The notes beneath the pieces were generated by a model. It ran no database searches, had not been told where the DNA came from, and saw nothing but the letters and a program-made list of their open reading frames with translations. Position numbers and translations under genes: made by a program. Below, one piece after another: positions 7,504 through 10,418 of a DNA stretch of 61,353 nucleotides. The stretch is from Ferrovibrio sp. (GTDB taxonomy: Bacteria > Pseudomonadota > Alphaproteobacteria > Ferrovibrionales > Ferrovibrionaceae): NCBI RefSeq assembly GCF_029255545.1, contig NZ_JANLJJ010000115.1, positions 12,160 through 73,512 of the forward strand. Direction: 5' to 3'. The first letter of the stretch is position 1. Each line of letters opens with the position of its first letter.

Positions 7504-7887
7504 TCAGGCCAGGCCGTCCGGCGCGAAATCGATAAAGCCGGTCACCGCCCGCAGCCGCCCGCCGGCCAGCGTGGCGAAGTCGGTGCCGCCCACCAGGGCA
7601 GCCGCCCCATCCGGCCCGGCCTCCCAGGAAAAGCGCAGGCGGTCTTCCACCGTCTCGGCCGCGCGGCTCAGGCGGAACACGAAGCCGGGAAATTTCTGCT
7701 GCACGGCAGCGATCATGCCATCCACGCCGTCATGCCCTTCCCCCTGCATCAGGGGATCGCGATACCGCACATCCTCGGCCATGGTCTGGCTGATCAGGCC
7801 GCGGCGGACGGCGGCATCGGTTTCGTTCCAGATGGCGATATAGCGGTCGACGATGACGGCGATGTTGCTGGCTGCGGCGTTGTCCAT
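7504..7887 (-). CDS. NTF2-like/SnoaL-like protein
   Basis: 127 residues from MDNAAASNIAVIVDRYI. The frame is open 12 codons further, but the start is set at 7887 because AGGAG lies 6 bases upstream of this ATG. The pattern of an N-terminal amphipathic helix, 'Y.D P' near VRYRDPLMQGEGHDGVDGM, and a run of beta strands with FSWEAG is typical of the SnoaL/NTF2 fold. Such proteins are small isomerases, cyclases or ligand-binding proteins; no catalytic set is clear here. It is monocistronic, with the gene-free region 7888-8330 upstream. Confidence 0.72.
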   Translation of the reverse strand: MDNAAASNIAVIVDRYIAIWNETDAAVRRGLISQTMAEDVRYRDPLMQGEGHDGVDGMIAAVQQKFPGFVFRLSRAAETVEDRLRFSWEAGPDGAAALVGGTDFATLAGGRLRAVTGFIDFAPDGLA

Positions 7888-8077
7888 GGTTTGCTCCTGA
7901 GGTTGGGATTGCAGAAACAACATGTGGCCGATGCGCCGCGCTGGCGATTACCTTGCCGATAATCAGCATACCGGCTTGATCGGCCGGCGGGCCTCACCAT
8001 CTTTTCCCCGCCGCTCTTGCCCATCGTGAATCCGACACACGTTTTGATTGCGTCCTGACGCGCGGCATCGACAAAGT

Positions 8078-8142
8078 TTGGCTACAATTGGCTGGAATTG
8101 GCGATCATTGGCTATAATTGGCGAAGTTTGGCTAGGCTTGGG
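8078..8142. repeat. 10-bp-phased TTGGC array (six units plus one variant)
   Basis: TTGGC begins at 8078, 8088, 8098, 8108, 8118 and 8128, exactly every 10 bases, and a seventh unit reads TTGGG at 8138. The remaining five bases of each unit vary but are often TA-rich (TACAA, TGGAA, GATCA, TATAA, GAAGT). At about one helical turn each, all cores face the same side of the duplex. A TATAAT hexamer falls at 8113-8118 inside the array, with TTGGCT 19 bp upstream, so a plus-strand promoter is possible. No gene starts just downstream on the plus strand. Confidence 0.8.
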
Positions 8143-8287
8143 CCCGCCGCGTTTCGATTCCGACCGACTGAAACGGCCGCTAATCAATGCGTTGGCCAGA
8201 AACAGGCCATTTTTGGTCGCCGTTTCCACCTCTCACGCCTGCCAGTTGTGCGATGTCCTGTCCGGCTGCGCGGGCCCGGATCGCCCA

Positions 8288-8308
8288 CCGCGCGGCTAGG
8301 CCGCGCGG
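8288..8308. terminator. GC-rich hairpin after the molybdopterin oxidoreductase gene
   Basis: A perfect 9-bp stem (CCGCGCGGC / GCCGCGCGG) closes on a 3-base loop, 22 bp beyond the stop codon of the minus-strand gene ending at 8331. There is no T-run after it on either strand, so it could act as a pause site, an RNA 3'-end stabiliser or a Rho-assisted end rather than a classical intrinsic terminator. Confidence 0.45.
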
Positions 8309-8330
8309 ATTCAGATAGCCCACCGCGTGG

Positions 8331-10418
8331 CTAGGCTGCCCGCAGCCACACGGCATTGTCGTGAAAAGCCGCGCCGCCATTGGGCTGGGCCGCATCGGCG
8401 CCGGTCAGTGCATTGATGCCCATGCCGTCGACGAAGGCGGCATGCGGCCAGATGCTTTCCACGATCACCACGCCATGCTGCACGCCGTCATACAGTTTCG
8501 CATGCAGCCGCACTTCACCGCGCCGGTTGCCCAGGGTCACCAGCTGCCCGTCCGTGATCTGCAGGGCCGCCGCATCGTCGGGATGGATGAAAGCCGTCGG
8601 CCGCGCTTCGCGTTTGGCCGAGCTGGGCGTTTCGGTGAAACTGGTATTGAGGAAATTGCGCGCTGGCGCCGTCACCAGACGGAAGGGATGCTCGGCATCG
8701 GCTTCCTCGATGCTGGTCCAGTGATCGGGCAGGCGCGGCATGCCGGCCGCATCCGGCCCCATCGCCGCCCAGTCGGGCGCGAAGCGGAATTTGCGATCCG
8801 GCCAGGCAAAACCGCCGAGGAAATGCGCCGTCTCGAAATCCGGCTGGCAATCATGCCAACGCTGGCTGCGCAGCGTCGCCACGTCGGGCCAGCCCGAATT
8901 TTTAAGCGTCGCCTCCACCATCTCGATGGCGCTCATCAGGAAACCCGGATGCTCGGCGCCCAGGCGTTTCGCCAGGTCGCAGATCACAGCATGGTTCTCG
9001 CGCGCCTCGCCCGGCGCCTCGACCAGCTTGGGTCCGAGCAGGATATGCTGCTGGCCGCCGGCCTGGTAGATATCGTCATGCTCGGTGAACATGGTGGCCG
9101 GCAGCACGATGTCGGCCATCTTCGCCGTCGCCGTCATGAACTGCTCGTGCACGCAGGTAAACAGGTCGTCGCGTTCGAAGCCCCGTTTCACCAGCAGGGA
9201 TTCCGGCGCCACCTCCATCGGGTTGGTATTCTGGATCAGCAAGGCGGTTACCGGCGGGCCATTCTTCAGCGCCTTCGCGTCGCCGGTCAGCACCGGGCCG
9301 ATCTGCGACTGGTCCAGCATGCGGATATTCGGGTCGACGGCATCCAGCCCGTCGATCAGCGTCTTGTTCCAGTGGAAGATGGCGCCATTGTTGTGGAAGG
9401 CGCCGCCGCCTTCGTATTGCCAGGAGCCGGTCACGCTGGCGATGCAGGTGGCGGCATGCATGTTCACCGCGCCGTTGCGGCTGCGCGCAAAGCCATAGCC
9501 CAGGCGGATGTAATGCCGCTTGGTCTCGCCCAGCAGCCGCGCGAAAGCCTCGATCTTGGCCACGCTCAGACCGGTGATGGCCGAAGCCCATTCCGGCGTG
9601 CGGGTTTTCAGATGCGCTTCCAGCTCGGCCGGCACGTCGGTATGACGCGCCATGTAGTCGCGGTCGGCATAGCCGTCGCGGAACAGCACATGCATCACCG
9701 CGCAGGCCAGCGCGCCATCGGTGCCCGGCCGCAGGATCAGCGCCATGTCGGCCTGCTGGGCGGTGGCGTTGTTGTAGACGTCGACCACCACGATCCTGGC
9801 GCCGCGCTCCTTGCGGGCGCGGATCGCGTGGGTCATCACGTTGACCTGGGTATGCACCGCATTGGTGCCCCAGATCACCACGCAGTCGCTTTTCGCCATC
9901 TCGCGCGGATCAGGACCGCTTAAGTGTCCGGTGGCTGCGATGTAGCCGGCGCGGGCCAGCGTCACGCAGATGGTGGAATGCTGCCCGGAATAGCGTTTGG
10001 CATGGCGCAGGCGGTTGATGCCGTCGCGCTGCACCAGCCCCATGGTGCCGGCATAGTAATAGGGCCAGACCGTCTCGCTGCCGTATTTCTTCTCGGCAGC
10101 GAGAAATGCCGCCGCCGTGCGATCCAGCGCCTCGTCCCAGGAGATCGGCGAGAACTGCCCCGAGCCTTTCGGGCCGGTCCGCAGCAGCGGCTGCAGCAGG
10201 CGCTCCTTGTGGTTGGCGCGCTCGGCGTAGCGCGCCACCTTGGCGCAGATCACGCCGGCGGTGTAGCTGTTGTCCTCCGCGCCCCGCACCCGGCCGATCC
10301 GCCCGTCCGGCGCGATGTCGATTTCCAGCGCGCAGGTGGACGGGCAGTCATGCGGGCACGCACTGTAGCCGACACTGGATGTGGACTGGGGCTTAACCGG
10401 GACGAAAGGGGCATTCAT
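8331..10418 (-). CDS. molybdopterin oxidoreductase catalytic subunit (DMSO-reductase family)
   Basis: 695 residues from MNAPFVPVKPQ. The open frame extends 74 codons further upstream, but 10418 is chosen because the ATG overlaps the stop of the preceding gene as ATGA. The N-terminus has a [4Fe-4S] motif C21-x3-C25-x3-C29 and C58 (VICAK), followed by molybdopterin-binding blocks (VVIWGTNAVHTQ, VVVDVYNNATAQQADMALILRPGTDGALACAVMHVL) and the C-terminal cofactor domain (LGNRRGEVRLHAKL). No Tat signal is visible, so it is probably cytoplasmic. The oxidised substrate is unknown; generic 'formate dehydrogenase-like' labels are common but not supported here. The FAD oxidoreductase encoded just upstream could be an electron partner, though this is only inferred from the overlap. 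Confidence 0.88.
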   Translation of the reverse strand: MNAPFVPVKPQSTSSVGYSACPHDCPSTCALEIDIAPDGRIGRVRGAEDNSYTAGVICAKVARYAERANHKERLLQPLLRTGPKGSGQFSPISWDEALDRTAAAFLAAEKKYGSETVWPYYYAGTMGLVQRDGINRLRHAKRYSGQHSTICVTLARAGYIAATGHLSGPDPREMAKSDCVVIWGTNAVHTQVNVMTHAIRARKERGARIVVVDVYNNATAQQADMALILRPGTDGALACAVMHVLFRDGYADRDYMARHTDVPAELEAHLKTRTPEWASAITGLSVAKIEAFARLLGETKRHYIRLGYGFARSRNGAVNMHAATCIASVTGSWQYEGGGAFHNNGAIFHWNKTLIDGLDAVDPNIRMLDQSQIGPVLTGDAKALKNGPPVTALLIQNTNPMEVAPESLLVKRGFERDDLFTCVHEQFMTATAKMADIVLPATMFTEHDDIYQAGGQQHILLGPKLVEAPGEARENHAVICDLAKRLGAEHPGFLMSAIEMVEATLKNSGWPDVATLRSQRWHDCQPDFETAHFLGGFAWPDRKFRFAPDWAAMGPDAAGMPRLPDHWTSIEEADAEHPFRLVTAPARNFLNTSFTETPSSAKREARPTAFIHPDDAAALQITDGQLVTLGNRRGEVRLHAKLYDGVQHGVVIVESIWPHAAFVDGMGINALTGADAAQPNGGAAFHDNAVWLRAA

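Follow-up and report, generated by a model that had tools for sequence, protein, structure and literature searches.

Bacterial intergenic repeats are usually viewed as identical-unit microsatellites or hairpin elements. In filamentous cyanobacteria, STRR sequences form short tandem arrays of seven-base units dispersed in intergenic DNA, and the boxes of MraZ are also known in a TGGGN form. PMC5282649 gives the MraZ site as (AAAGTGKN3)3, bound as an octamer, and describes the HsdC controller-protein repeats, (GTGTTAN5)2, in promoters of Mollicutes. Among the literature matches listed for decamer arrays such as those analyzed here, or for the genus Ferrovibrio, none described them in its title or abstract opening.

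The window, i.e., the whole stretch of 61,353 nucleotides of Ferrovibrio sp. DNA that was analyzed, contains an array with the letters TTGGCTACAA TTGGCTGGAA TTGGCGATCA TTGGCTATAA TTGGCGAAGT TTGGCTAGGC TTGGG (Table 1). The six TTGGC cores and the closing TTGGG follow each other in exact 10-bp steps, and the six spacers, TACAA, TGGAA, GATCA, TATAA, GAAGT, and TAGGC, are all different. The letters thus bore out an earlier, sequence-only reading, which had claimed seven TTGG cores in strict 10-bp steps with differing spacers, a TATAAT within the array, located here at 8113-8118, and a gene-free setting, since the array lies in an intergenic gap between two minus-strand genes. When three TTGG cores at 10-bp spacing were searched with at most one mismatch, five matches were found in the window, all within the array, and in 100 dinucleotide shuffles of the window the mean was 0.25 and five was never reached. 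A lag-10 scan of 406 kb of the host genome, composed of the window and 20 further stretches with N runs set aside, detected this array as the sole one with period 10.

Table 1. Features around the decamer array, in window positions. Gene calls, here and throughout, come from our own codon-model script.
Feature	Position	Strand	Details
Decamer array	8078..8142	+	TTGGC at 8078, 8088, 8098, 8108, 8118, 8128; TTGGG at 8138
Intergenic region holding the array	7888..8330	.	443 bp; codon-model gene calls, ORFs
SnoaL-like gene	7504..7887	-	SnoaL_2, E 7e-9; start 191 bp from the array
Molybdopterin oxidoreductase	8331..10418	-	array 190 bp past its stop

The MraZ repeats and the arrays both consist of a short core in direct repetition, with a 10-nt period and freely varying spacers. 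They differ in the core, (A)TGGG in the former and TTGGC, TTCG, or GCTT in the latter, and in location, as MraZ boxes sit upstream of the mraZ/dcw cluster while the arrays, of up to 17 or so units, are dispersed over many loci. In the host genome, mraZ is on contig C18 and the window on C115, and the array is therefore not upstream of mraZ. The HsdC repeats share the direct arrangement of a core with a 5-base free spacer, but have an eleven-base period and two units. In OmpR/PhoB-type operators, core pairs also occur outside long arrays, whereas the five TTGGC-N5-TTGGC pairs of the 406-kb host sample all belonged to the window array, with none outside it. That the cores are binding sites of MraZ itself could be argued from the shared layout, a short GG-containing core directly repeated with a 10-bp period, and from the presence of MraZ in 18 of the 18 genomes of the order. 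Nevertheless, we hold this to be highly improbable, because CCCA-N6-CCCA, i.e., ATGGG boxes on the other strand, matched upstream of mraZ in all 18 genomes, with arrays or not, and the array cores are not (A)TGGG. The MraZ site is thus unchanged where arrays have arisen, and MraZ is an analogue, not a likely binder.

The survey set contained 18 genomes of the order, where G000 is the host genome and G010 and G011 belong to other genera; arrays were located by fixed four-base cores, and decayed arrays were missed. A search for four TTGGC cores gave matches in three of the 18 genomes (the host, G005, and G016). When three TTGG cores were searched in the host, eight loci were found, and the reversed-pattern control was unexpectedly higher than the search (39 vs. 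22 matches), which led to a second array family, GGTTCNNNNN, at seven loci. The host therefore has at least 15 decamer arrays, eight with TTGG cores and seven with TTCG cores. These are, like STRR sequences, short tandem arrays dispersed in intergenic DNA with many copies per genome, with a unit of 10 bp and not a heptamer. Overlapping matches to four TTCG cores numbered 161 in G006, 55 in G002, 49 in G001, 41 in G000, two of them from a separate repeat of near-identical units, and 32 in G005; G003, G004, G007, G008, and G009 had 0 or 1 each. In G010, the 29 matches in the reversed control of the TTCG search were arrays with a GCTT core, and three rows labelled GCTT in G002 and G005 are really parts of TTCG arrays. 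From 90 fetched loci, 88 of 92 array rows were outside predicted genes, these rows including two of one G002 region and one G016 array counted twice. The G016 unit, TTGGCTCGAA, is TTCGAGCCAA on the opposite strand, and is a possible link between the TTGG and TTCG core types. In the host TTCG arrays L219, L220, L221, and L224, the row runs on 3′ as ~10-bp units with a TATCG core, e.g., CTTATCGCCG CGTATCGCGG CCTATCGGCG in L224. A separate ~20-bp repeat, roughly GTGCTGAGTCAGGTCYATTY, was observed just past the TTCG arrays L340, L348, L349, L350, and L351 of G001.

The comparison with close relatives, which the sequence-only reading had proposed as the way to refute it, gave a mixed outcome. Orthologs of the oxidoreductase with at least 76% identity were found in eight congeners, and only that of G005 (85% identity) had an array 3′ of the gene. 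This TTGGC array lies 99 bp past the stop, in the same orientation and in strict 10-bp phase, with different spacers. Within 600 bp after the stop, the best 40-base stretch had 30 lag-10 matches in G005 vs. 16 to 20 in the other seven, and the lack of an array in seven of eight congeners at this place counts against a protein platform. The gene after the oxidoreductase also differs, being GST-like (by eye) in G005, G006, and G001 vs. SnoaL-like in the host. In the protein tree, G000 was sister to the group of G005, G006, G001, and G002, so that the arrays in G000 and G005 require two gains, or a single gain with one loss; the flanks of both are not obviously alike, and the two arrays could thus be independent.

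In the rest of these genomes, the same comparison was favorable, with strong positional conservation of the arrays. Within the G006 set of 17 arrays, mostly up to about 3.33 Mb, 13 of the 17 examined were immediate neighbours of a gene whose ortholog also adjoins an array in another species, and this was found for seven of 15 in G000, a count that omits an eighth case with reversed orientation. Between G000 (15 arrays) and G005 (18 arrays), five places were common against ~0.5 expected (P near 1e-4), assuming ~570 intergenic regions of at least 200 bp, scaled up from 56 in 406 kb; the expectation would be 0.77 for 350 sites and 0.18 for 1500. The divergent region between trxB and lrp had an array in G001, G002, G005, and G006, and in G011, of another genus, this interval is 219 bp with the array absent; in G000, G003, G004, G007, G008, and G009, trxB has a different neighbour. 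In G002 and G006, an array was also found in the gap that separates rpsD from a WYL-like regulator (both named by eye), and arrays were beside the same WYL-like regulator in G001 and G005. When four orthologous regions were aligned, the flanks matched, and within the array it was mainly the TTCG columns that persisted. At three places, a TTGG array was found where relatives have a TTCG array, always with CCAA on the TTCG strand. As a separate observation, a thioredoxin reductase match with one in-frame TAG was present in both L489 (G017) and L490 (G015).

The spacing and the cores were then quantified over the collection. Steps of 9-12 bp from one [TC]TCG core to the next, counted over 64 TTCG rows, were 10 bp in 514 cases, 11 bp in 23, 9 bp in four, and 12 bp in two, and the 11-bp step was present in 21 of the 64 rows, often at a TTCGTTTGRTG-CTCG-like junction. 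Imperfect cores were counted in interior cells, the only correction for the bias of a search keyed on the core, which makes the core look more conserved than it is: for TTCG, 5/153 in G006, 4/74 in G001, 12/95 in G002, 15/74 in G005, and 11/62 in G000; for TTGG, 8/40 in G000, 0/20 in G005, and 0/9 in G016; and 5/52 in G010. Spacer vocabularies were genome-specific, with a strong dependence between neighbouring spacer positions. Similarity was lower between adjacent units than between units of different arrays in G006 (0.384 vs. 0.442), G001, G002, and G010, equal in G005 (0.550 and 0.548), and slightly higher in G000 (0.587 and 0.567), all of these being raw differences. Slippage would make neighbours alike, and since four of six genomes displayed the opposite, simple slippage is no explanation for the arrays. 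For the window array itself, a simple slippage repeat was rejected as well, because six units have six different spacers and the whole unit is not repeated. The array alignments and the unit comparison therefore support the earlier claim that core and phase are kept in a manner for which slippage is inadequate.

Arrays resemble those of their own genome more than their counterparts elsewhere, i.e., they show concerted evolution. The longest shared exact stretch had a mean of 16.2 for paralogous arrays vs. 13.0 for arrays at orthologous places, and of 11.8 for pairs from other genomes and other places; at least 24 bases were shared by 8.1% of 479 paralogous pairs vs. 0 of 53 orthologous ones. 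The host arrays L212 and L216 were identical over 64 bases with unrelated flanks, indicating that whole arrays can be copied between loci, and the G010 arrays were near-copies with similar word order. Identical words recurred between arrays 1.95 to 3.81 times more often than position frequencies predict. All this speaks for the main rival of a protein-binding platform, a dispersed, homogenised, minisatellite-like repeat without function for the cell, which copying or gene conversion spreads among intergenic sites and whose core and phase persist via few recent templates. Within-genome copying alone could keep the core uniform, which counts against the platform. Moreover, rows of decamers with varying words are common elsewhere: a scan of viral contigs for five TTCG cores gave 84 stretches, and of the 80 analyzed, 41 had one or two words and 39 had at least three, so spacer variety alone is not special. 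We consider this functionless repeat a serious possibility, albeit one that we doubt, since the spacers are strongly diversified and the cores are not, the places are conserved across species, and adjacent units are less alike than those of other arrays in the four genomes named above.

Two further proposals of the sequence-only reading, control of an RNA and a 3′ boundary of the operon, bear on transcription. A transcribed RNA element, such as a Rho loading site, a 3′ UTR, or a leader, is a further rival. Downstream of the oxidoreductase, the minus strand of the array reads CC every 10 nt, and the transcribed strand there is CCAA-rich, 190 nt past the stop codon. Folded on the plus strand, the window array with its flanks had a z of -1.77. 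The TTCG arrays folded slightly better than column shuffles on either strand (z values of -0.55 and -0.44, with sem 0.14 and 0.15), and for the GCTT arrays, one of the strands outperformed unit-order shuffles (z -1.19, sem 0.25, n 9). However, 58 TTCG and 15 TTGG arrays folded no better than unit-order shuffles on either strand, the minus-strand fold of the window array gave a z of 0.33, and Rfam reported only three tRNAs on eight loci. Facing the 15 TTGG arrays with clean calls were 17 gene 3′ ends, eight of which read CCAA and nine TTGG, which disagrees with a boundary or Rho function. These results make an RNA element very improbable. A sigma-70 promoter is not supported either, as a scan found 0 at the window array. 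A hairpin over the TTCG loop was also rejected, as covariation was seen at two of six pair positions (z 5.3 and 3.7), with -2.4 to 1.5 at the others, and was inconsistent between genome sets. A terminator-like site was found on the plus strand at 8193-8209 (shuffle mean 0.9).

A helical turn of B-DNA is ~10.5 bp, and the 10.0-bp step does not equal it, contrary to the claim of a spacing of exactly one turn; the seven cores consequently drift ~3 bp relative to one helix face. Bending, another function proposed for the array, would be explained by intrinsic curvature of DNA in which AT and GC steps are phased, and in agreement the arrays of G006 and G010 ranked high when curvature was predicted with a wedge model (mean percentiles of 0.93 and 0.90, respectively). 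Nonetheless, the predicted curvature of the window array was at the 61st percentile of intergenic 70-bp windows, the arrays of G000, G001, G002, and G005 averaged 0.27 to 0.62, and generic bending would need no fixed four-base core. We therefore find curvature a very improbable explanation.

Among the functions proposed earlier, protein contacts in a row, made by a putative binder, remain the best explanation; the earlier interpretation is thus partly supported. We tentatively favor, at slightly below an even chance, that the arrays are phased recognition cores or platforms for a putative oligomeric DNA-binding protein, analogous to the MraZ boxes. What the genomes directly establish are dispersed arrays at conserved places, with core and phase conserved against divergent spacers and with similarity within genomes. 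The window array would belong to a class of decamer arrays that occupy intergenic sites across the genomes of this alphaproteobacterial family, with a core of TTGG, TTCG, or GCTT, depending on the genome, set 10 bp apart. The putative protein would assemble along the cores, as the MraZ ring does on repeats of 10 nt, spacers of 5 to 6 bases would matter less and turn over quickly, and copying or gene conversion would keep the arrays of one genome alike. Binding may influence promoters in the vicinity or the local structure of the chromosome. The balanced orientation of the TTCG arrays and the lack of a unit-order folding signal in the TTCG and TTGG arrays make a role at the DNA level more likely. 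On the other side, the orientation of the TTCG arrays to tandem genes was inconsistent (13 vs. 9, in counts that omit 16 of 92 rows without a clean flank call), and core pairs were absent outside arrays in the 406-kb sample, unlike in an ordinary regulon; both count against the platform. Polarity relative to replication was dropped after the G-rich strand gave 27/64 for TTCG (two-sided 0.26), 3/14 for TTGG (~0.06), and 6/9 for G010.

If place, core, and 10-bp phase persist while the rest is rewritten in each genome, the arrays would hint at an undescribed nucleoprotein system, and since arrays occur in five Ferrovibrio species and are scarce in several congeners, the partner protein is searchable by presence/absence. 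A more specific version of the platform, which we regard as unlikely, is a lineage-specific class of protein-binding platforms on the chromosome, fixed in conserved gene contexts. Their recognition core would change from one species to the next (TTGG, TTCG, or GCTT), with concerted replacement throughout each genome, as in co-evolution of the array with a putative fast-evolving binder, and the TTCG arrays are often accompanied by an SOS-box-like motif. This motif is GTTCN7GTTC or GAACN7GAAC, which we take to be the alphaproteobacterial LexA (SOS) box, a direct repeat with an 11-bp period. Among intergenic regions of at least 200 bp, a LexA-like motif was present in 23 of 57 with TTCG arrays, 3 of 14 with TTGG arrays, and 2 of 10 with arrays labelled GCTT, and in 0 of the 107 regions that lack an array within these stretches. 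In the host background stretches, four of 56 regions had the motif, one site being 136 bp upstream of lexA and another 32 bp upstream of a weak DNA-alkylation-repair match. No LexA-type box was found within 600 bp of the window array, and the genes beside the G006 arrays were not repair-like by eye. Of 63 arrays, 32 had the k-mer GAACATATA, allowing one mismatch, within ~200 bp on their downstream side, vs. at most nine in mononucleotide shuffles. GAACN7GAAC motifs were also noticed downstream of TTCG arrays, e.g., L417, L419, L422, L357, and L371.

A collection-wide scan for four TTGGC cores gave at least 120 loci; among those listed, 93 had one or two different spacers and 27 had three or more, and three of these 27 were from genomes of this family. 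Other records had rows of related appearance. L122, L149, L155, and L193, three of the four from Verrucomicrobia, displayed TTGGCAYYTT-type decamer rows with varying words and a common 3′ module (GTTTCGCGGCGGCGCATGGAAA-like). Rows of TTGGCTTTNN were present in L090, L134, and L176, followed by inverted AAAGCCAA units in L090 and L134, both from a Candidatus Odyssella MAG, and by more TTGGCTTT in L176. The IMG/VR contigs L504, L517, L527, L553, and L566 had in common decamer rows of the TTCGCTCACT TTCGCTACGT TTCGCTCGTT type, with varying words.
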